A stretch of 20,084 bases of DNA from a virus. The translations under genes were made by a program, and so were the position numbers. Of this stretch, positions 1,639 through 10,424 are shown piece by piece (the stretch's first letter is position 1; each line of letters begins with the position of its first letter). The stretch lies in IMG/VR virus record IMGVR_UViG_3300037042_005756, positions 1-20,084 of that record. One strand, given 5' to 3'. Under the pieces are notes generated by a model. It saw only the letters and a list, made by a program, of their open reading frames with translations. It had not been told where the DNA came from and made no database searches.

Positions 1639-2298
1639 TTAAAGTATCATTGGTTTTTCATGCCCTACTATTACTTCAGGATCAACCCAAATATCATATC
1701 CTTTTTGATTTAATTCATAACATATTGAAATATCTTCTGACATTATATCTTTTATAGTGACTCCATTATGATTCCACTCTTTCCAAATTGGTTTAAACCA
1801 TGGAAATTCAAGAGATTCAAATACTCCTTTTTTAAATAAAGTCCATCCAAATCCTACAAAAGCTGCTTTAAATAGTCCTTTTTTATCAGATAGTGTTTTT
1901 TTAGTCATAAATTCATAAGTACTATATTTTTGAAAATAATCTTCATCCCAATGTTCAGAAACTGTGTATAAAAAGTTATTATGCATTTTATATACTCCAC
2001 TAACGATATCTTTATCAGCAGATAATAATTTAAAAAAATGAGATGGATTAAAAACAATATCAGAATCAATCCACATTATATAATCATAATCTACTTCACC
2101 TTGAAATGGTTTTTGATGTATTCCATTTTTTAATTCACCTCCCAAACATATGTTGCGAGCATAATATATTATAGGAGAATAATGTTGATATATTATAGTG
2201 TTAATTCCTTGGTTAACACACGCTCCTAATAATTGAGACCATGATTTAAGAAATGCTCCACTATATTCTTTACCTGGAAGGCAAAATACTACGTTCAT
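1639..2298 (-). CDS. GT-A fold glycosyltransferase
   Basis: This 219-residue soluble protein looks like a compact GT-A glycosyltransferase. It opens with a beta strand and nucleotide-binding region (MNVVFCLPG). It has a hydrophobic strand ending in the metal-binding Asp-Ser-Asp (MWIDSD, residues 75-80), a DIVSGVYK segment, an acceptor-side motif FVGFGWTLFKKGVFE, and a late EDISICYELNQKGYDIWVDP block that supplies the usual catalytic Glu-Asp pair. No transmembrane segment is visible. Its start overlaps the end of the phosphoribosyltransferase gene by 29 bases, placing it in the modification operon. It could glycosylate a modified DNA base, a virion protein or host surface sugar; the sequence does not decide between these. 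Confidence 0.75.
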   Translation of the reverse strand: MNVVFCLPGKEYSGAFLKSWSQLLGACVNQGINTIIYQHYSPIIYYARNICLGGELKNGIHQKPFQGEVDYDYIMWIDSDIVFNPSHFFKLLSADKDIVSGVYKMHNNFLYTVSEHWDEDYFQKYSTYEFMTKKTLSDKKGLFKAAFVGFGWTLFKKGVFESLEFPWFKPIWKEWNHNGVTIKDIMSEDISICYELNQKGYDIWVDPEVIVGHEKPMIL

Positions 2299-2692
2299 AA
2301 TCTGGTATTGTTTGTGAATCTTTATTTTCCCATGGGTATACTATCCATTCATTTTCATAAGCAATCTCCCAAAAGTAATTGGGTTGATAGTCAGCTGATT
2401 GTTTCCAGTGTAGAGCGGCAGTATAGATATTGTTTTCAAATTTAAATCGCTTTAATGTTCTACCTGTATCACAGATATCATCTACAACTAGAATATCACC
2501 CTCTATTGATGCTATATTAGCTTGAGCTACAAATGGAATACTTAATCTATGAGATAACATTACTGCTGGAATCAATCCTCCACGAGGTAATCCACCAACA
2601 GCCTCTAATTTAACTCCACTAGTGTGGATGCTAGCAACTATTCTGTTAACTGCTCTATCAACATCGTTCCAACTTAAAAATCGTCTATCCAT
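2270..2692 (-). CDS. Purine-type phosphoribosyltransferase
   Basis: This 140-residue protein has the type I phosphoribosyltransferase signature: a GGLPRGG loop (33-39), the PRPP-binding motif VVDDICDTGRT (69-79), and a C-terminal ENEWIVYPWE (113-122), a pattern typical of xanthine/guanine/hypoxanthine phosphoribosyltransferases. The predicted reaction is purine base plus PRPP to nucleotide monophosphate. At about 140 residues it is near the short end for the family. The stop codon of folE and this start codon share a base (TAATG), so translation is probably coupled to GTP cyclohydrolase I. That pairing suggests it feeds guanine back to the GTP pool used by FolE. Base specificity cannot be read from sequence with confidence. 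Confidence 0.82.
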   Translation of the reverse strand: MDRRFLSWNDVDRAVNRIVASIHTSGVKLEAVGGLPRGGLIPAVMLSHRLSIPFVAQANIASIEGDILVVDDICDTGRTLKRFKFENNIYTAALHWKQSADYQPNYFWEIAYENEWIVYPWENKDSQTIPDYERSILPSR

Positions 2693-3417
2693 TATTTATA
2701 TCCTTCCATATTTAGTTTTAACATTTCAATTACCTCCATCTTAGCTGTTCTACTATGATCAGCAAATACACCACTTACTTCACTTGTAACCATACTAGCG
2801 CCAAAGTGTTTTACGCCTCTACAACTAACACAGTTGTGGTATGAGTGAATTACTACCATTACGTTTTCAGTTTCAGCTACAGCTTGAATAGCATTATGTA
2901 CAGCTACTGTAAGTTGTTCTTGAATAGCACCTCTACGAGCAAAATGTTCTACAATACGATTCAATTTACTTAAACCTACTACTTTACCATCTTCACCTGG
3001 TATATAAGCGATATGTGCTTTACCTAAAATAGCCTGATGATGATGTGAGCACATACTAACAATTGGAATATCTCTTTCTAATACAATACCTGCGTAACCA
3101 TCACTTGGAAATGCAGTAATGTCAGTTGGTAACTCATATCTACCTCTCCATAAATCAAACACATAGGCTTTAGCTACACGACGAGGTGTTTCCATACTAT
3201 TAGGATCATTTTCCCAATCAACACCAAGTGCTGTTAAAAACTGTCCATATGCTTTTTCAGCATTAGCTACAATACCCCATTTTTCATCATCACTTAAAGA
3301 ACGATGTTTACCATCCTCAAGTAATGACTTTAAATGAGTTGAAATACCATTAGCAAAACCTGCTTGTGCTGTTTCTAATGTTTCTACATTAGCTATTTTC
3401 CTGCGTTTGTTCTCCAT
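2692..3417 (-). CDS. folE: GTP cyclohydrolase I
   Basis: This enzyme converts GTP to 7,8-dihydroneopterin triphosphate, the first step of 7-deazaguanine synthesis. The 241-residue length matches the family. Zinc ligands are visible as Cys123 and His126 in MCSHHHQ and Cys196 in HNCVSCRGV. Other conserved blocks are DPNSMETPRRVAKAY (71-85) and VVGLSKLNRIVEHFARR (146-162). It is a canonical FolE rather than the FolE2 type. The start overlaps the small membrane protein upstream by 29 bases, and the stop overlaps the phosphoribosyltransferase start by one. The same cluster holds queD, queE, queC and dpdA but no other folate or pterin genes, so the role in deazaguanine synthesis is well supported by context. 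Confidence 0.95.
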   Translation of the reverse strand: MENKRRKIANVETLETAQAGFANGISTHLKSLLEDGKHRSLSDDEKWGIVANAEKAYGQFLTALGVDWENDPNSMETPRRVAKAYVFDLWRGRYELPTDITAFPSDGYAGIVLERDIPIVSMCSHHHQAILGKAHIAYIPGEDGKVVGLSKLNRIVEHFARRGAIQEQLTVAVHNAIQAVAETENVMVVIHSYHNCVSCRGVKHFGASMVTSEVSGVFADHSRTAKMEVIEMLKLNMEGYK

Positions 3418-3628
3418 TATTATTTTCTTTATTATTTAATATATCAATTTCTTTTTGGGTATCCAAAAGTTTCATTGCGACCATAGTATTCCAAACTGAA
3501 ATTTGATTCCATAGTTTTTGGATTTCACTATGTGCTTTATTAATTTGTCTCCATTGAAATAATTGCATACCCATTAGAAACAAAATAATAATAAGATAAA
3601 AGTGTTCTTGAGTTAATGTAAATGTCAT
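3389..3628 (-). CDS. Small single-pass membrane protein with coiled-coil tail
   Basis: This 79-residue protein has one hydrophobic segment at about residues 10-26 (FYLIIILFLMGMQLF). A predicted amphipathic/coiled-coil stretch with regularly spaced Leu, Ile and Trp follows (28-65), then a polar Asn/Gln/Glu-rich end. The layout is that of a tail-anchored or spanin-like small phage membrane protein, but no family is recognised. The gene overlaps folE by 29 bases and follows the Smr gene by 9 bases. With the 32-residue membrane peptide at 3841-3939 it flanks the Smr gene on both sides. Confidence 0.65.
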   Translation of the reverse strand: MTFTLTQEHFYLIIILFLMGMQLFQWRQINKAHSEIQKLWNQISVWNTMVAMKLLDTQKEIDILNNKENNNGEQTQENS

Positions 3629-3637
3629 ATATATATT

Positions 3638-3844
3638 TTAATCTATTACAATTATTTCTCCTGGATTATGAGATGGAGTGTAGAAATCATATTTGTGTTT
3701 TTTTAATACTTCTTGTGTTAGATTTCTCATTCGATCAGATAATCCTGTTATAATTCTAATAGGCGGATTATTCATTAAAATAAAGTTCTCAACTACATCT
3801 CTAACATCATAATGAGATACACCATGAAGATCTAGCTCTTTCAT
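3638..3844 (-). CDS. Minimal Smr-domain protein
   Basis: This 68-residue protein consists almost only of an Smr (small MutS-related) domain: LDLHG at 4-8, the RIITGLSDRMRNLTQEVL block (30-47) matching the usual glycine-containing helix start, and NPGEIIV near the end in place of the common GxGxxxV strand. Smr domains are nicking nucleases or nucleic-acid-binding modules, active on DNA in MutS2 and on RNA in other proteins. The conserved LDLHG is kept. The central motif reads TGLSD rather than the more usual HGKG, so catalytic competence is uncertain. Its ATG overlaps the stop of the upstream membrane peptide gene (ATGA), implying translational coupling. Confidence 0.72.
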   Translation of the reverse strand: MKELDLHGVSHYDVRDVVENFILMNNPPIRIITGLSDRMRNLTQEVLKKHKYDFYTPSHNPGEIIVID

Positions 3845-3939
3845 TTTAATTTATTTATTTGTTTAAGCATGTCTATTGTACCATATATAGCTACAAAAAA
3901 TAAAATTCCTAATGATATAATAAGAACTATTGTATTCAT
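3841..3939 (-). CDS. Tiny 32-residue membrane peptide
   Basis: A short open frame begins one base after the queE stop and ends with TGA inside the ATG of the Smr gene (ATGA overlap). It encodes 32 residues: MNTI, then a hydrophobic segment through about residue 22 (VLIISLGILFFVAIYG), then a basic tail rich in Lys ending KQINKLK. The composition is that of a single membrane span with the positive end in the cytoplasm. The exact fit between two real genes and the stop/start overlap support it as a true gene despite its size. No function is recognised. Confidence 0.7.
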   Translation of the reverse strand: MNTIVLIISLGILFFVAIYGTIDMLKQINKLK

Positions 3940-3940
3940 A

Positions 3941-4774
3941 TTATACATTTAATGTTTTATTCCAAGCTGAGATATGTAAACGAGTCAGTCCTCTAAATTT
4001 ATATATTTTAGCCATTTCTAAAACGAAATTAGTACGCTCATGGAAATCATCTTGATCATCTAAACCAGGCATACACACTACATTTTTAAGAGGTATATTG
4101 AATGGTTCTACAAAGTCACGGAATAATTCCTTAACATCATCTTCTGTGCTGATAACAAATTTAAATTGGTAGTTTCCATGTTGCATGATTCTTTTAATAG
4201 CATCAGGTACAATACGTTGTTTAGCTGTCATACCTGAATTAGCCAACTTAGGTGAGCAGTTAATTTGGTTTAAGTAACTAAATAAATCATCTTCAATTAC
4301 TACAGTACCATTAGTTTCAATTTCATTATAAACTTGCCAGCTGTAATCTCCATTTAAATTCCAATATTTAAAGAAATTAACAATAGCCTCTTGATGCCCT
4401 TTAATTGTAGGTTCACCACCAGTCCAAATAATATGAATAACACCATTTAAGATATCATCGTAGATGCCTTGTTCTTTCCATCTATCAATTAGATATTGAA
4501 ACTCTTTATCTTCACCTCTCCATAACCACTGGCTTGTAGAATCACAAGTCCAAGTTGCTTTACCCTCAGCATGTAAATCACCAACAAATATTTCTCCGTC
4601 TTCTAGCTTTTGTTCTTTAGCTAATGCATTTGCAAACTTACGAGACATACCACAAGTTAGGTTACAAATACCTAAACGAACAAAGTAAGAGGGCACTCCT
4701 GAGGAGATACCCTCACCTTGGACAGAGTAGAAGTCACTAGAAATTAATAATTTATTTGGATCAATTTTACTCAT
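3941..4774 (-). CDS. queE: 7-carboxy-7-deazaguanine synthase (radical SAM), variant cluster motif
   Basis: QueE rearranges 6-carboxytetrahydropterin to 7-carboxy-7-deazaguanine using a 4Fe-4S cluster and SAM. Family features are FYSVQGEG (15-22), SYFVRLGICNLTC (29-41) and WTGGEPT, plus an NEIETNGT block and SPKLANSG. The usual CxxxCxxC cluster motif is split: Cys37 and Cys41 are in place, but the third Cys equivalent is Cys77 in WTCDST, after an insertion of 35 residues rich in charged amino acids. At 277 residues the protein is longer than many QueE (about 210-245), consistent with the insertion. Its stop overlaps the following region by one base gap, and its start overlaps queC's end by 4 bases (ATGA). 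Confidence 0.9.
   Translation of the reverse strand: MSKIDPNKLLISSDFYSVQGEGISSGVPSYFVRLGICNLTCGMSRKFANALAKEQKLEDGEIFVGDLHAEGKATWTCDSTSQWLWRGEDKEFQYLIDRWKEQGIYDDILNGVIHIIWTGGEPTIKGHQEAIVNFFKYWNLNGDYSWQVYNEIETNGTVVIEDDLFSYLNQINCSPKLANSGMTAKQRIVPDAIKRIMQHGNYQFKFVISTEDDVKELFRDFVEPFNIPLKNVVCMPGLDDQDDFHERTNFVLEMAKIYKFRGLTRLHISAWNKTLNV
4689..4714 (-). other. GC-rich hairpin inside queE coding sequence
   Basis: Nested inverted repeats lie within queE codons 21-29: outer arms GAGGG (4689-4693) and CCCTC (4710-4714), inner arms CTCC (4696-4699) and GGAG (4703-4706), with a 3-base loop and a small internal loop. In an otherwise AT-rich gene this makes a locally stable mRNA hairpin near the start of the message. 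Function is unknown; it could slow translation or simply reflect the Gly/Pro codons there. Confidence 0.45.
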
Positions 4775-5616
4775 ATGTTTGTTTTTTTATGTTCTAATAA
4801 TACTTTTTCAACATGTTCTTTAGCTTTTTCCCATTTAACAGGACCAGTTTCATCAGCGTAAGCTACAGGATCAGGACGATCAAGTTTTAAAAATGCTTCA
4901 ATACGTTCTACAGAAGAAGCTGATTTATAATCTGAATACCAAATTGGTTTGCCACTAAATGAGTCTATAATTAAAATTGGTTTATAAGATGTGTTAGTAC
5001 GTTTATATACTTCATCAAAATCAAATCCTAATTTTTTACAACATACTTCTCCATCTTTTAAAATATCAAATTTATTAATTGATAAGTATGGAGTATATAC
5101 ACTGATTAATTCACTATCCCAATTACCTGTTTTAAATGCTTCAAAATCAACATCACGAAACTCTTGTCTACAATCAGGATAGATAGCATGGTCACCAGCA
5201 TGAATACCCATTGCAATAGCAACCTCTTGTTTTTCATCTTTAGTAGCAATTGATAATGCTACTGCTTGAATAATAGAACTAAAAATCTTATTACGATTAG
5301 GTACTACTGTTTCTTTCATGTTAGCTTGTTCATAATGTCCTTCAGGAACATCTTTCCCACCACTAACAAGCGCTGAATTTAATAATTCACTTAATCCTTC
5401 AAGTTTAATTACTTGATAGCGTACCATAGGTACTTTAGCTTTAAATAACTTGTCATTAACATACTCAATTAACTGTTGAGCACGTTCAAGTTCAACTCTA
5501 TGTTTTTGTCCATAATCAAATGATAACGCTGTAACTTCATAGCCATTGGCAAGTAGATGAAGCAGCAATGAGGAACTATCCATTCCTCCACTTAATGATA
5601 ATACTGCTTGTTTCAT
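4771..5616 (-). CDS. queC: 7-cyano-7-deazaguanine synthase lacking its zinc site
   Basis: QueC uses ATP and ammonia to turn 7-carboxy-7-deazaguanine into preQ0. The PP-loop SGGMDSS (9-15) is intact, as are FDYGQKHRVEL (33-43), VVPNRNKIF (104-112), MGIHAGDH (136-143) and YPDCRQEF (146-153), all strong family marks. The normal C-terminal zinc site with four Cys (SCY..., then CxxCxxC before ERxEAF) is recognisable in outline but every ligand is changed: Ser210, Asp229, Ser232 and Ser235 occupy the four positions, the last before VERIEAF. The length of 281 is somewhat above the usual 220-235, partly from an insertion around 213-228 and a longer C-terminus. The gene overlaps queE and dpdA by 4 bases each. 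Confidence 0.9.
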   Translation of the reverse strand: MKQAVLSLSGGMDSSSLLLHLLANGYEVTALSFDYGQKHRVELERAQQLIEYVNDKLFKAKVPMVRYQVIKLEGLSELLNSALVSGGKDVPEGHYEQANMKETVVPNRNKIFSSIIQAVALSIATKDEKQEVAIAMGIHAGDHAIYPDCRQEFRDVDFEAFKTGNWDSELISVYTPYLSINKFDILKDGEVCCKKLGFDFDEVYKRTNTSYKPILIIDSFSGKPIWYSDYKSASSVERIEAFLKLDRPDPVAYADETGPVKWEKAKEHVEKVLLEHKKTNI

Positions 5617-6398
5617 TTTATATATTGTTTAAATTTTTCAACATTAAAGATAATATTATCCATTCGCTCAGTCAAATCTACTTCAAATAGTTCTTCAATT
5701 TTTGTTTTTGGTTTATATTCAATTCCGTTGTCTCCATATCTAACACCTTCAGATCCTACAATAATTGGATTTGATGTGTCAACTGATTTAATCCATTCAA
5801 AATTAGTATAAGCCATAAACTCTTGAGGTAATGAACATCCTAATAAATGATGATAAACATGTTTATATACTGTATCTTTTTCAACTAAACGTCTAATCAA
5901 TTCAATTCTACCTAACATTTGAGCATATACTGGTTTATGGTTAGGATAAAATTCAGTATAAGCTATACTTGAATGATTAAATGCGATATGTTTATACCCT
6001 ATATCAATCAAAGTTTGATATGTAGTAATCAACTCACCCATATTTTTACCTTGACATACAGCCATAAACTGAGTGTCTTCAGGTACTTTATCTTTATAGT
6101 TAAACATCCAATGTTTAGCATTTCTTAAAGTAGCATTTGAATCATTCCATTCATCAGGTACTACAAATATGTCAGGTTTAACTAACCACATTTTATCAAA
6201 TAAATCTTCAGTTGTATGTTTTACACCTTCAAATAATCCATTATCCATAATAATGAATCTTTGATCTAACCTAGCTTTTTGAAAATATAATCTATAACGA
6301 TCATATTTATCTATTAAATGTGGAAGACAATAATCTATATCATTCCACTCATAACTGTGATTCATTAATTCAATAGGTAACTCATGACTTACTTTCAT
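5613..6398 (-). CDS. dpdA: DpdA/TGT-like DNA guanine transglycosylase
   Basis: This 261-residue protein matches the TIM-barrel core of tRNA-guanine transglycosylase paralogues found in phages. Landmarks in order are FIIMDNGLFE (48-57, the base-binding Asp52), FVVPDEW (78-84, Asp82), MAVCQGKN (112-119, the VQGG-like loop), KHIAFNH (136-142), HHLLGCSLP (183-191, matching HLxGxG) and SVDTSNP (205-211) with Asp207 at the nucleophile position. The C-terminal zinc domain of tRNA TGT is absent, as in phage DpdA proteins. The predicted reaction swaps guanine in DNA for a 7-deazaguanine base. The short length suits a phage DpdA2-like form, though the subfamily needs a phylogeny. Overlap with queC (4 bases) and nearness to queD support the role. 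Confidence 0.88.
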   Translation of the reverse strand: MKVSHELPIELMNHSYEWNDIDYCLPHLIDKYDRYRLYFQKARLDQRFIIMDNGLFEGVKHTTEDLFDKMWLVKPDIFVVPDEWNDSNATLRNAKHWMFNYKDKVPEDTQFMAVCQGKNMGELITTYQTLIDIGYKHIAFNHSSIAYTEFYPNHKPVYAQMLGRIELIRRLVEKDTVYKHVYHHLLGCSLPQEFMAYTNFEWIKSVDTSNPIIVGSEGVRYGDNGIEYKPKTKIEELFEVDLTERMDNIIFNVEKFKQYIK

Positions 6399-6403
6399 AT
6401 TGT

Positions 6404-6616
6404 TTATTTATAATGGTGTAATTTCTTTTTCCATTTATCAATTTGTGTCTGGCAATACCACTTTCCTAACCAACTAGAAGCATTAAAATATTTTTTCTCC
6501 CATTCCTCTATTTTTTTAAATATAGGTCTATTAGCTTTATTAATGATGTCTATATCATAATAGCTATTTTCTTCTAGCATTGCTTTTTCCCATTGTTCTT
6601 TTTTATTATCCTTCAT
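6404..6616 (-). CDS. Small charged protein of unknown function
   Basis: This 70-residue, Lys-, Glu- and Trp-rich protein sits between queD and dpdA. Five Trp residues and alternating charges suggest a helical, possibly nucleic-acid- or protein-binding peptide. The C-terminal WKKKLHHYK is basic. Its start lies 11 bases inside the queD end and its stop is 5 bases before dpdA, so it is part of the operon. No family is recognised; a helper of the transglycosylase is possible only by position. Confidence 0.6.
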   Translation of the reverse strand: MKDNKKEQWEKAMLEENSYYDIDIINKANRPIFKKIEEWEKKYFNASSWLGKWYCQTQIDKWKKKLHHYK

Positions 6617-7070
6617 AGATAGCTGAGTTTTTATTATTTTCCATAAATTCTACTCTTGTAACTTTAACTCTATTATTAGTTTCTTCTTGAACAAATGTGT
6701 TAATTTTTTCAAAAATATATTTAGCAAATTGTTCTGCTCCTACAGCTGGTAATACTCTAGTTTGAGCTAAACCATGCTCACCCATTGCTTTAAAACCAGC
6801 TAAATATGGATCATCTTCAGCTACAACTAATGTATGATCAAATGTATAATCCATCCATTCTTTAGGATTCATACCATCAATTTTACCCTTAGCTCTTTTC
6901 ATTCCTCCAAAATCCCATACCCAATTTCTTTCATCTAATTCACCTGCAAACCATACTCTAAATGAAACACCATATCCATGTAAGAAACGACAATGTGTTC
7001 CTTCTGCTTTCCATTGACGGAATACACAACTATATCCATCAAATAATTTAGTTGATAAAAATTTACTCAT
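6606..7070 (-). CDS. queD: 6-carboxytetrahydropterin synthase, divergent zinc ligands
   Basis: QueD makes 6-carboxy-5,6,7,8-tetrahydropterin from dihydroneopterin triphosphate. The 154-residue protein has the T-fold marks: catalytic Cys27 in THCRFLHG (25-32), NWVWDFGGMK (49-58) matching the VxDFxxLK strand, FDHT with His79, PAVGAEQFAKYIF (108-120) matching the PTxExxA helix, and Glu144 in FMENNKNSAIY. Two of the three zinc histidines seen in classical QueD are not obvious: the first falls in CVFRQW and the HGH becomes His31-Gly-Tyr33, with His26 a possible substitute ligand. I believe a related subfamily with FRQW and HGY occurs elsewhere, so this looks like a subfamily trait. The start overlaps the upstream gene by 4 bases. 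Confidence 0.85.
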   Translation of the reverse strand: MSKFLSTKLFDGYSCVFRQWKAEGTHCRFLHGYGVSFRVWFAGELDERNWVWDFGGMKRAKGKIDGMNPKEWMDYTFDHTLVVAEDDPYLAGFKAMGEHGLAQTRVLPAVGAEQFAKYIFEKINTFVQEETNNRVKVTRVEFMENNKNSAIYEG

Positions 7071-7558
7071 ATAATATATTTTTTAGGTCTTCCTCTACGT
7101 TTTTGTTTTGCTCTGAAATTATAAGTAGCTTTTATTAGGTCATAAAGCTCTCTTAATGTGCCTTCAAAAGACTCCATTTTATTATCTAACTCTTCATCTT
7201 CAATTTCAAATAAACCAGTTATAGCTTTTTTATATAACTCTAAACGTTGTGGTTCATCTTTTTCAAAATCCTTCATTAAACGTCTATAACGTTCTCTATA
7301 TATAGTTTGCGCCTCATGTCGTTTAACTGGGTCATTAATATCTCCTGTTTTTTCTTCCATCTCAAGTAAAGCATATTGTGCTTGCCAATAATATGATGAA
7401 AAGTCAAAATCTCCATTATCAATCCTAGCATGTACAGCATCTTTAGATGATAATGAAGACTTATCTTTAAATTTTCGCCACCAGAAAAACTGGTTATATT
7501 TGAGTGGTTGTAGTTTACTTAACTCTCTATTAATTATTTCTTTTGTGTGTATTATCAT
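7067..7558 (-). CDS. Unknown helical protein with AT-hook-like C-terminus
   Basis: This 163-residue, mostly helical, highly charged protein belongs to no family I recognise. An aromatic stretch (FFWWRKF, 24-30) is followed by long Glu/Lys/Arg-rich helices (60-145). The last 12 residues hold KRRGRPKK, in which the Arg-Gly-Arg-Pro core (155-158) is the classic AT-hook that binds the minor groove of AT-rich DNA. The gene overlaps queD by 4 bases and the DUF5522-like gene by 29. A DNA-binding partner of the modification or replication genes is a reasonable guess, not shown. Confidence 0.6.
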   Translation of the reverse strand: MIIHTKEIINRELSKLQPLKYNQFFWWRKFKDKSSLSSKDAVHARIDNGDFDFSSYYWQAQYALLEMEEKTGDINDPVKRHEAQTIYRERYRRLMKDFEKDEPQRLELYKKAITGLFEIEDEELDNKMESFEGTLRELYDLIKATYNFRAKQKRRGRPKKYII

Positions 7559-7823
7559 AACCTTTATTATTAAATATATCTATTTCTTCCTTGGTCACCA
7601 AATATTTGTCCTGTACATTTTGATTACCATGTTTATGTTTTGGTTCAAACGGACAATGTCTACAGCCATTACCACAACATTGGCCACGTTCAATATGGAA
7701 TTGAGCGGTGAATATCACACGCTCACCTTCCATATAATAATGTATATCTTCTTTAAACAACTTCACAAGCACCTCCAGCACATGCTGCTTGGTCTTGTAA
7801 GTTAGTTTCATCACTAAATTCAA
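7530..7823 (-). CDS. DUF5522-like Cys-rich small protein
   Basis: The diagnostic block is YYMEGERVIFTAQFHIERG followed by a Cys cluster with Cys49, Cys50, Cys54 and Cys57 (CCGNGCRHCPF), which matches the small DUF5522 family widespread in Bacteroidota. The Cys spacing suggests metal binding. Function is unknown. The start is uncertain. The longest frame begins at 7823 and overlaps the ribonucleotide reductase end by 71 bases; a Met at 7811 overlaps by 59; a Met at 7733 avoids overlap but would cut the conserved DxxYY strand. A TTG near the reductase stop is a further option. The end overlaps the AT-hook gene by 29 bases. Confidence 0.72.
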   Translation of the reverse strand: MNLVMKLTYKTKQHVLEVLVKLFKEDIHYYMEGERVIFTAQFHIERGQCCGNGCRHCPFEPKHKHGNQNVQDKYLVTKEEIDIFNNKGYDNTHKRNN

Positions 7824-9606
7824 CTACTTTACTTAAATCAAGAGCATGTAAATGTTTAACACGTTCATTAAATTGTTCTTCAGTAATTGTCTCAAATGGA
7901 GCTTGAGTATATGTTCCTAAATCCTCTGGTAGGAATGATAATGCGGTAAAATACTCTTTATTTTCCCATAACCACTCTCCTACAGTTGACCATTCTTCTT
8001 GTTTAATGTTTACTGTAGCTGATACGTTATGCATATTACTACCTTTTCTATGACCTGGTTTAATCCACTCTTTATTAAATTTCTTAATACGTTCAAGTAA
8101 TTCAACAGCTGTTTCTTTAGGACGTACAATAGCGTTTTTAGGAGCACGCTGAGGAATAGTTACAATTGCTTGAATGTTTGGTTTAAAGAAATCATCTTCT
8201 AACAATTCAGGATGATGAATTGATAAGTGAGTGTATAATGCCTCGTTCTTACCAATACGGATTCTTCTTAAATAGAAGTCATCATGCCAAGCGTGAATAC
8301 CACTTGATGTACCTAATACTAATGATGTAGTACCTGATGGTTTAACACATGTAACACGAGCTGCTTTATTAATGCCAATTACCTCAGCTAAACGAGCGTT
8401 TTCTTCAGTAGCAATTTTAGCTGCTTCTTTTAAACTAAAATTTAATACAGCACCTGAGGCAATACCAGTCATTCCGATACCTAATAATGCTTCTTTTTCA
8501 GTTGTTTTCTTCCATACATCTCTTAGATAATGGAAATCAGTATATGATGCTTGTAATGTACCAATGAATGCTGCTGCTTTAACTCTAGCATTTAAATCCT
8601 CTTGTGATTCAACTGTTGAGGCATTTACCTCACATAGATTACAGAATTGATTTGGTTTCAAGTTAATTTCAGCACATGGGTTAGTACCAGCATCTTTATC
8701 GTTTGAGAAGATAAATCCTGGTTCACCTGAATTACTTAATTCGATTTTCTTCCATAAATTAAGAAACACATCTTTTTCAATCTTAGATTTAATTAATACA
8801 GCTGTATTATTAGCTCTTCCACGTTGTGGATTATCTTCCCACCATGATCCAAACTTACATGTTAACATTTCCTCATCATCTAAATTAAATAATGCAATGA
8901 GGGCAGCGCGACGAATACCACCTGATAATACTGCATCAGCTAAATGACAGATGATATCATGACATTCAAGTGATGTGAGTTGTTCACCATCTTTTTTTCT
9001 GTCTAATATTGCTTGTACGTGTACTAAAGCTAATTTAAGTGGTTCTGGACCAGGTGCTTTACCACCTACAGTAATTAATTGAGCACCTTTAGGACGAATA
9101 TCTCTAAAATCAAATAATGGAAGTGCACCACCACGTAAATAAGATTTAACTAATACTTTAACAGCATCAGCCCATCCTTCAATACTATCACCTACAAGGT
9201 AACGTTTTGATTTTAATGGCTTTCTTACAACAGGTAACTTTTCAATATGATGTTTTTGAACACTATATCCTACCCCACAACCAGAAAGAAGTAAAAACAT
9301 TATTTCACTGAAAGAAGCGATGTCATCAATAGGCAAATAAGAGCAATTAAATATACGAGCATTATTGATGTCAACGGGCTTACCTGCAAATTGCATCGAT
9401 CGCATCGATGGTAATACTTTTTTATTGTAAACAAATTTATAAGCTTCTTCAATTTCATTTTTTAAATTTGGGAATTTTTTTAAGTGCATTTCTTTGTTTC
9501 GATCTACTAATTCACTCCATGTTTCTCTTCTGTTTAATTCTGGTCTGAACTTGCTATACTTCATGTATGTGGTTATTTCAGATAGAATTTCTTGTGTTAC
9601 GTCCAT
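7753..9606 (-). CDS. nrdJ: Adenosylcobalamin-dependent (class II) ribonucleotide reductase, monomeric type
   Basis: This enzyme reduces ribonucleotides to deoxyribonucleotides using a B12-generated thiyl radical. Cysteines line up with Lactobacillus leichmannii RTPR: Cys88 in FNCSY (like C119), Cys311 in NPCAEINL (like thiyl Cys408) and Cys322 in FCNL (like C419), with the same 11-residue spacing, plus a C-terminal redox pair Cys609 and Cys614. Other marks are LSGCGVGYSV (107-116), a glycine-rich KAPGPEPL block and VTCVKPSGTTSLV. At 617 residues it is shorter than RTPR (about 740). No B12-binding accessory domain or second subunit is visible. The enzyme works without oxygen and needs host or environmental cobalamin. 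It is preceded by a 79-base spacer with a hairpin, the longest gap in the replication block. Confidence 0.92.
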   Translation of the reverse strand: MDVTQEILSEITTYMKYSKFRPELNRRETWSELVDRNKEMHLKKFPNLKNEIEEAYKFVYNKKVLPSMRSMQFAGKPVDINNARIFNCSYLPIDDIASFSEIMFLLLSGCGVGYSVQKHHIEKLPVVRKPLKSKRYLVGDSIEGWADAVKVLVKSYLRGGALPLFDFRDIRPKGAQLITVGGKAPGPEPLKLALVHVQAILDRKKDGEQLTSLECHDIICHLADAVLSGGIRRAALIALFNLDDEEMLTCKFGSWWEDNPQRGRANNTAVLIKSKIEKDVFLNLWKKIELSNSGEPGFIFSNDKDAGTNPCAEINLKPNQFCNLCEVNASTVESQEDLNARVKAAAFIGTLQASYTDFHYLRDVWKKTTEKEALLGIGMTGIASGAVLNFSLKEAAKIATEENARLAEVIGINKAARVTCVKPSGTTSLVLGTSSGIHAWHDDFYLRRIRIGKNEALYTHLSIHHPELLEDDFFKPNIQAIVTIPQRAPKNAIVRPKETAVELLERIKKFNKEWIKPGHRKGSNMHNVSATVNIKQEEWSTVGEWLWENKEYFTALSFLPEDLGTYTQAPFETITEEQFNERVKHLHALDLSKVVEFSDETNLQDQAACAGGACEVV

Positions 9607-9645
9607 TTTGGTTTATATATTTAAAAGTTAAGTGTACAATATCAT

Positions 9646-9661
9646 GCTATCTCTCGACAGC
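9646..9661. other. GNRA-type hairpin ahead of the ribonucleotide reductase gene
   Basis: Arms GCTATC (9646-9651) and GACAGC (9656-9661) form a 6-bp stem. On the minus-strand RNA the loop is GAGA, a GNRA tetraloop, and one pair is a G-U wobble. It lies 40 bases upstream of the reductase start codon, so it may be a leader structure affecting translation or mRNA stability. Read on the plus strand it is followed by a T-rich run (9663-9673), which would resemble an intrinsic terminator for antisense transcription. Confidence 0.5.
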
Positions 9662-9685
9662 CTTTCTTTTTTTATGTTTTGATTT

Positions 9686-9949
9686 TTAAAGTAAGCGACT
9701 ATCTAATTCAGTCATCTGGAGATATAAAACAAAATCTTCAAATATGTCTTTAGGTACACCTTTAAGTGACAAAGCATGTTCTTGAAGAAGTGATTCTGAA
9801 ATCCTGTCGCTAGTTCCCTCTAATAATAATGGTTTAAAACCAGTAAAAACTTCATTAATAGTTTTTGTTTCATCAACATCACCAAAATCATCATTGTCTT
9901 GAAGATATTGAATCATCAATTCTTCAATTTTGGTTTTAGAGTATTCCAT
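9686..9949 (-). CDS. Small acidic protein of unknown function
   Basis: This 87-residue acidic protein has no Cys or membrane segment. It is probably helical, with a negative DNDDFGDVDETK stretch (18-29) and a regular hydrophobic pattern towards the C-terminus. Its start lies 14 bases inside the end of the DUF6884-like gene, which supports expression as a pair. No domain is recognised. Confidence 0.6.
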   Translation of the reverse strand: MEYSKTKIEELMIQYLQDNDDFGDVDETKTINEVFTGFKPLLLEGTSDRISESLLQEHALSLKGVPKDIFEDFVLYLQMTELDSRLL

Positions 9950-10424
9950 TTTTATAGAGTTTTTTTACTTCCTTAATTATTTTTGTTGTCAACTTAATAA
10001 TAGCTTCTTTCAATTTCTGAAGTAATGCTTTCTTTTGTTGACCAATGCGTAGACCCTCAAATGGAACTTCAACGTTCTTCATATGGGGTTCTAAATATTG
10101 ACGATATGCATTTCCTGCTAAAATAACAAACTTATCTTTATCAAGATTATAACCTTTTTGTTTTAATTGACCCAATACAGTCTCAGCCCATTTCTCACGT
10201 TCTGGAGCTGGCATTTCTTTCAATGTCTTATTGTATGGATCAATTTTAGCACGTAATGGTACTAAATGATACTTAGCGGAAATAATATATATATCATTTG
10301 GGCTAGTAAGTTTTTTGGCGTACTCCAATTGTTTTTTAAACAAATCAGAATTATAAAGTTCTTCAGCAGGAGCTGCTTGACTTTCTTTACCCGCGGAACA
10401 TGATACTAATACAACCTTACTCAT
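9936..10424 (-). CDS. DUF6884-like (YaaA-related) protein
   Basis: The 162-residue protein has the pattern of the DUF6884 family: VVLVSCSAGKE (4-14) with the Ser-Cys-Ser motif, APAEELYNSDLFKKQ (18-32), DIYIISAKYHLVPL (44-57), IDPYNKTL (61-68) and a late VILAGNAYRQYLEP (99-112). The family occurs in phages and bacteria, and its biochemical role is not established to my knowledge; it looks distantly like YaaA (DUF328). The C-terminus (130-162) is a Lys-rich helix that could bind nucleic acid. The gene sits between helicase and ribonucleotide reductase, a few kilobases upstream of the deazaguanine genes. Confidence 0.75.
   Translation of the reverse strand: MSKVVLVSCSAGKESQAAPAEELYNSDLFKKQLEYAKKLTSPNDIYIISAKYHLVPLRAKIDPYNKTLKEMPAPEREKWAETVLGQLKQKGYNLDKDKFVILAGNAYRQYLEPHMKNVEVPFEGLRIGQQKKALLQKLKEAIIKLTTKIIKEVKKLYKNGIL

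Follow-up and report, generated by a model that had tools for sequence, protein, structure and literature searches.

The virus record IMGVR_UViG_3300037042_005756 was analysed over its entire length of 20,084 bases (hereafter the window), a genome fragment whose two edges are the ends of the record. On its minus strand, queD, dpdA, queC, queE and folE form one leftward run with small open reading frames (ORFs) between them. This run very probably constitutes a phage-encoded pathway for 7-deazaguanine modification of DNA, in which QueC and probably QueD would work without zinc sites. Its features, in leftward order, are as follows.

6606..7070, minus strand: QueD-like 6-carboxytetrahydropterin synthase, 154 amino acids (PF01242, E 8.6e-16; phrog_2389, E 2.1e-40)
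6404..6616, minus strand: orf70, ORF for a small basic protein between queD and dpdA, overlapping queD by 11 bases
5613..6398, minus strand: DpdA-type DNA guanine transglycosylase, 261 amino acids (AlphaFold2 fold, Foldseek matches, invariant residues)
4771..5616, minus strand: QueC-like 7-cyano-7-deazaguanine synthase without zinc cysteines, 281 amino acids (PF06508, E 1.6e-37)
3941..4774, minus strand: QueE-like radical SAM protein, 277 amino acids (phrog_2076, E 1.7e-38)
3841..3939, minus strand: predicted membrane peptide, 32 amino acids, MNTIVLIISLGILFFVAIYGTIDMLKQINKLK (from sequence and translation)
3638..3844, minus strand: Smr-domain-like protein, 68 amino acids (PF01713, E 4e-4, below cut-off)
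3389..3628, minus strand: TM79, ORF for a 79-residue membrane protein with an N-terminal hydrophobic helix
2692..3417, minus strand: FolE, GTP cyclohydrolase I, 241 amino acids (PF01227, E 9.6e-46)
2270..2692, minus strand: purine phosphoribosyltransferase (PRTase), xanthine/guanine type by similarity (NF006613, 1vdm)

The first-pass annotation of this DNA had described the five named genes as a leftward run joined by overlaps of 1–4 bases. The genes lie where it placed them, and their assignments are borne out by Pfam and PHROG profiles and, for DpdA, by fold. Overlaps of this size occur between dpdA and queC and between queC and queE (4 bases each) and between folE and the PRTase gene (1 base); queD and orf70 overlap by 11 bases and TM79 and folE by 29 bases, and short gaps separate orf70 from dpdA and the Smr-like gene from TM79. 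The run also continues past position 2692, where it had been taken to end, into the PRTase gene. No Pfam or PHROG family matched orf70, homologues of which occupy the equivalent position in many relatives. Among the three small proteins encoded between queE and folE (the 32-residue membrane peptide, the 68-residue Smr-like protein and the 79-residue membrane protein), the Smr-like protein is present in a minority of relatives and TM79 is partly conserved.

This arrangement is not due to chance, since QueC is adjacent at 33 of 33 viral loci that encode a close DpdA (58–89% identity), and QueD at 32 of 33. A 168,946-base viral contig (L005) encodes a close DpdA (72%) and QueC (78%), and QueD was not found within its 20-kb locus.

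A transglycosylase identified by fold

Because the DpdA of the window has no Pfam match and belongs to a PHROG without function (phrog_19058, 'unknown function'), it was identified by its fold. The AlphaFold2 model, built from 77 aligned sequences, has a predicted local distance difference test score (pLDDT) of 95.0 and a predicted template modelling score (pTM) of 0.91. Foldseek matched it in the PDB to the tRNA-guanine transglycosylase (TGT) 2pot (E 6.9e-9) and the DNA 7-cyano-7-deazaguanine (preQ0) insertase DpdA 7ui4 (E 2.3e-8), and among viral models to a phiST protein (template modelling score, TM, 0.88) and the DpdA2 of nt-1. The best PDB sequence found with the DpdA profile was again 7ui4, a weak match (E 0.043) in which the HLLG motif and the SxD nucleophile motif are aligned. 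Six residues, D52, N53, D82, Q116, G187 and D207, are invariant in the 77 DpdA sequences; they include the putative catalytic residues D52 and D207, the latter aligned with the SxD of 7ui4. By motif order, we take the invariant residues to correspond to D102, D156, Q203 and the nucleophile D280 in the general numbering of TGT; the equivalence of D52 and D207 to D102 and D280 is one of motif position, not of superposed coordinates. Asp207 would act as the nucleophile, and Asp52 would serve in base recognition or acid-base catalysis.

The fold is that of a TGT, and some phages with preQ0 genes and without DpdA have been proposed to boost queuosine (Q) in tRNA (PMC6884629). A role for the cluster in raising queuosine-type modification of tRNA during infection, with tRNA as the substrate of the transglycosylase, is nonetheless highly improbable. 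The TGT family PF01702 was matched neither by the window DpdA nor in 18 related records, with 14 of 14 known genomes positive as controls. The CxCxxC zinc motif of tRNA TGT, CDCYTC in the E. coli enzyme, was found in 0 of 82 DpdA homologues; the protein has just 261 residues, and no tRNA genes lie within the window. The first-pass annotation had considered a grouping with tRNA TGT and proposed placing the protein among the DpdA subfamilies. DpdA1 and DpdA2 are too divergent for a shared tree, and a profile comparison was used in its place. With hhalign, the window DpdA scored 100% against CP220, 100% against immuto and 98.6% against phiST, compared with at most 10% against Iggy, CAjan and nt-1 and 11% against E. 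coli TGT. By these profiles its nearest group is that of CP220 and immuto, phiST is more distant, and the CAjan/Iggy and nt-1 types fall outside. DNA as the target is also favoured by the family membership shared with the DpdA of CP220, a phage with modified DNA.

The closest named homologue, at 33% identity, is that of Flavobacterium phage immuto, annotated as DpdA; homologues in the Campylobacter phage CP220 group share 31–33% identity and are annotated without function. The CP220/immuto-type group presumably corresponds to the one called DpdA3 by Cui in 2023, in which all guanine can reportedly be replaced. The protein of Cellulophaga phage phiST, gp042 (9294-10073 of locus L125), is unannotated and combines the DpdA-like fold (TM 0.88) with the 98.6% profile match; its cluster contains queD, queE and folE, with no annotated queC.

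QueC, QueD and QueE with altered metal-binding motifs

Canonical QueC was described in a 2026 study by the motifs SGGxDS, YxQxHxxE, VPxRN and YPDC, with C(x)8CxxCxxC as its hallmark zinc motif (PMC13329287). The catalytic motifs are intact in the window QueC (SGGMDS, YGQKHxxE, VPNRN and YPDC), and these motifs, along with a Tyr after the first zinc-Cys position, are kept in 97–99 of 99 viral homologues. The zinc cysteines are replaced by S210, D229, S232 and S235. The replacements are themselves conserved, S210 being common to 98 of the 99 non-redundant viral homologues and D229, S232 and S235 to 97, and CxxCxxC occurs in none of the 99. All four cysteines are kept in the QueC of E. coli, CAjan, nt-1, phiSM and CP220, and they are absent from that of immuto, Iggy and a Rhizobium phage.

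QueD shows a parallel change. The published signature of QueD (PTPS-I, where PTPS denotes 6-pyruvoyltetrahydropterin synthase) is CxxxHGH (PMC5041015). That signature was found in 0 of 82 homologues, 80 of which carry CxxxHGY, and the first zinc His is likewise not conserved among them. The AlphaFold2 model (pLDDT 91.8) matches QueD2 (7v0f) and E. coli QueD (4ntk), and C27, H31, D78, H79 and E144 are invariant in 68 homologues. Cys, an Asp-His pair and Glu have catalytic roles in QueD, and C27, D78-H79 and E144 are likely the catalytic residues here. In QueE, the cysteine motif is CX3CX35C, with a 35-residue insert between the second and third Cys. The three cysteines are conserved and the 35-residue spacing recurs in 79 of 82 homologues, departing from the compact cluster motif, and the NCBIfam models for QueE score below their cut-offs (E 6e-12 to 5e-7). 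FolE is well above its threshold (PF01227, 155.9 bits vs a cut-off of 27) and retains the zinc-ligand motifs CSHHH and HNCVSCRG, aligned with other phage FolE. The folE gene is the most exchangeable of the cluster, with about 80–98% identity in some relatives and about 40–47% in others with otherwise similar clusters, which suggests repeated replacement.

QueC, QueD and QueE are therefore only 'like' their families, as each fails one published motif test; the DpdA assignment stands. Their non-canonical metal-binding motifs went unnoticed in the first-pass annotation, and no earlier report of conserved zinc-ligand loss in QueC and QueD was found in the literature searched.

The defining zinc motifs of QueC (PMC13329287) and QueD (PMC5041015) being absent, the two proteins might be degenerate or repurposed, so that host preQ0 is used, as in several phages with DpdA alone that depend on the host (PMC6884629), or so that the QueC-like protein deazaguanylates protein like Cap9 or QatC. 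We regard this as unlikely. The pattern is one of strict conservation, not decay, with SGGMDS, YxQxHxxE, VPxRN, YPDC and the S/D/S/S replacements nearly invariant. Moreover, the window QueC retains exactly the Cluster 1 motifs that are lost in QatC (PMC13329287), and no partner from Qat or from a cyclic-oligonucleotide-based antiphage signalling system (CBASS) was recognised within the window.

Cellular relatives also argue against decay. Among the bacterial and archaeal genomes searched, zinc-site-less QueC turned up in Fastidiosibacteraceae (57–60% identical), Pirellulaceae, Poseidoniales and Neomarinimicrobiota; some other QueC matches in metagenome bins also carry DpdA and are probably phage contigs. 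In 8 of 8 TGT-bearing cellular genomes checked, the zinc-site-less protein is the sole full-length QueC, other hits being weak and partial. Six of the eight encode QueF, and the two without it are archaea, in which QueF is not expected. The only PTPS protein in three Fastidiosibacteraceae is an HGY QueD beside queC, with QueF present. As sole copies beside TGT and QueF, these zinc-ligand-less enzymes look functional and probably still make preQ0, and the simplest reading of the sequences is that the altered proteins supply preQ0 for tRNA. Among phages, Iggy carries both variants, an HGY QueD and a QueC without zinc cysteines, and its DNA is reported as dPreQ0-bearing in a passage of PMC11008142 that cites Olsen 2023.

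In a quick QueC tree, made with the zinc region left out and without bootstrap, the Fastidiosibacteraceae nest among viral sequences with values of 91 and 94 in the Shimodaira–Hasegawa-like approximate likelihood ratio test (SH-aLRT), and the branches starred in this tree require the zinc-site state to have changed at least twice. Phage-to-cell transfer of preQ0 genes into Fastidiosibacteraceae is likely on this phylogenetic evidence. A prophage origin of these genes was considered and rejected, as the queC-queD neighbours in Cysteiniphilum are, by sequence, chromosomal genes for enolase, IspD and ribose transport. In Cysteiniphilum litorale, chromosomal queE, queD and queC were located at 6618-8807 of locus L226. 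On balance, we lean towards the view that zinc in QueC and QueD is dispensable for preQ0 synthesis. A single zinc-ligand-less lineage would then be used to modify phage DNA and would also, as the sole copy, supply the tRNA pathway in Planctomycetota, Poseidoniales archaea, Neomarinimicrobiota and Fastidiosibacteraceae, of which the last-named probably acquired it from phages.

Proposed pathway and its product

The gene set and the DpdA fold bear out the earlier claim that all genes from GTP to preQ0 are encoded together with a DNA-type transglycosylase. In the proposed pathway, GTP would be opened by FolE, carboxytetrahydropterin made by QueD and 7-carboxy-7-deazaguanine made by QueE, which QueC would convert through the amide to preQ0. 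DpdA would exchange guanine in phage DNA for the modified base, and the modified DNA would be less cut by host restriction enzymes. The exchange should release guanine, and for this reason we tentatively propose that the guanine-type PRTase might recycle it to GMP. The PRTase matches the xanthine PRTase model NF006613 (E 4e-11, below cut-off) and the purine PRTase 1vdm (E 2e-11), and a homologue lies inside the deazaguanine cluster of immuto.

The product depends on which enzymes accompany QueC. No queF was found with Pfam profiles within the window, itself a fragment; this agrees with the first-pass annotation and is backed by near-full-length relatives, as QueF was not found in close relatives of 155–183 kb. 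A clear QueF is present in only immuto, G011 and G003 among 18 related records. Weak PF14489 hits in several relatives were not counted as QueF: they cover about 51–53 profile positions in frames of about 211–231 residues beside the cluster, which were taken as FolE. A formyltransferase occurs only in G011 and G003 among 16 virus records, and immuto has one adjoining dpdA. By gene content, QueF and formyltransferase form a separate branch that travels together; both are missing from the window's closest relatives, which points to dPreQ0.

We consider dPreQ0 the most likely product, and probably the modification that this DNA carries. The choice had previously been left between the preQ0 and 7-carboxy levels; the 7-carboxy product (dCDG) is unlikely, since the encoded QueC keeps every catalytic motif. 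Given CP220, the amide dADG, previously covered only by the words 'related masses', is a real if distinctly less probable alternative and the main one, in which the pathway is complete and dADG replaces most or all guanines. CP220 has a DpdA from the family of the window protein (32% identity) and DNA reported to be 100% dADG (PMC8306585), and the altered C-terminus of the window QueC could halt the reaction at the amide step. However, CP220 QueC retains the four zinc cysteines, and loss of the zinc site was therefore rejected as the explanation of dADG there. Immuto combines a zinc-site-less QueC with QueF, implying that its QueC reaches preQ0, and where the zinc-site-less QueC is a cell's sole copy, QueF or an archaeal-type TGT is present, both of which need preQ0.

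Several points weigh against the proposed pathway. QueC, QueD and QueE all score below the curated cut-offs of NCBIfam. The host of Iggy, like many, makes preQ0 itself, so that dPreQ0 in Iggy is no proof that the phage enzymes function, and uptake of preQ0 by cells is conceivable. As the record is a fragment, the genome may encode QueF or another tailoring enzyme beyond it.

Phages are known to counter restriction by 7-deazaguanine modification, and the pathway itself is one more example. Of more interest are the enzymes: those of a large viral clade under strict conservation, and of several lineages of cells, lack the zinc ligands and are seemingly functional. If this holds, both the rules for annotating the preQ0 pathway and its presumed dependence on metal must change, and Fastidiosibacteraceae, with their nested sequences, would have taken over phage enzymes for their own tRNA modification.

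Genomic setting and closest known systems

Upstream of the cluster lie replication genes, which also run leftward.

14750-13947, leftward: single-stranded DNA-binding protein (SSB)
13941-12832, leftward: UvsX
12866-11820, leftward: exonuclease
11816-10446, leftward: DnaB-like helicase
9606-7753, leftward: B12-dependent ribonucleotide reductase

The ribonucleotide reductase gene is followed by orf163, queD, orf70, dpdA, queC, queE, three small ORFs, folE and the PRTase gene, after which come genes for a glycosyltransferase-like protein and a dCTP deaminase/dUTPase-like protein. The glycosyltransferase-like protein (1639-2298, minus strand, phrog_1574) has a 29-base overlap with the PRTase gene; it was rejected as a probable member of the pathway, a homologue having been detected next to the cluster in just two relatives. 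A DUF6884 protein (9936-10424, minus strand; PF21818, E 5e-43) is encoded between the genes for the helicase and the ribonucleotide reductase and is kept at 78–97% in some relatives. A small ORF (7530-7823, minus strand) carries the motif CCGNGCRHCPF, which we presume to resemble DUF5522 proteins common in Bacteroidota. No clear Shine-Dalgarno sequence precedes any start checked in the window, the guanine plus cytosine content is 31%, and the nearest isolates are Flavobacterium and Cellulophaga phages, which together suggest a Bacteroidota host.

Among known systems, Flavobacterium phage vB_FspM_immuto (MW353176) likewise has a single region with queD, a small ORF overlapping it, queE, PRTase, folE and dpdA, as well as a zinc-site-less QueC and an HGY QueD (identity to the window 33% for DpdA, 67% for QueD and about 60% for QueC). 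It differs in encoding QueF and a formyltransferase, in having queC about 11 kb away and in a QueE without the 35-residue insert. The Campylobacter phage CP220 group shares the DpdA family (32%, hhalign 100%), whereas its QueC has four zinc cysteines and its deazaguanine genes are scattered. Pseudomonas phage Iggy and Escherichia phage CAjan (Queuovirinae, dPreQ0) have the same set of FolE, QueD, QueE, QueC and DpdA without QueF, and Iggy shares the HGY QueD and the QueC without zinc cysteines. Their DpdA, however, belongs to a different, longer subfamily beyond reach of the window DpdA profile, and CAjan QueC keeps its zinc cysteines. The bacterial preQ0 insertase DpdA (7ui4) is the second distinct protein by fold and the best by sequence profile, sharing HLLG and SxD, but it exceeds 400 residues compared with 261 and its profile E-value is 0.043. 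The queD-queC-queE genes of Fastidiosibacteraceae (Cysteiniphilum and Facilibium) differ in being chromosomal and in occurring alongside QueF and TGT, where they presumably serve to make queuosine in tRNA, and a search for DpdA at the locus was negative; nevertheless, they resemble the window genes in QueC (57–60% identical) and QueD (41–52%), have the same zinc-ligand losses, and their QueC is nested in the viral clade.

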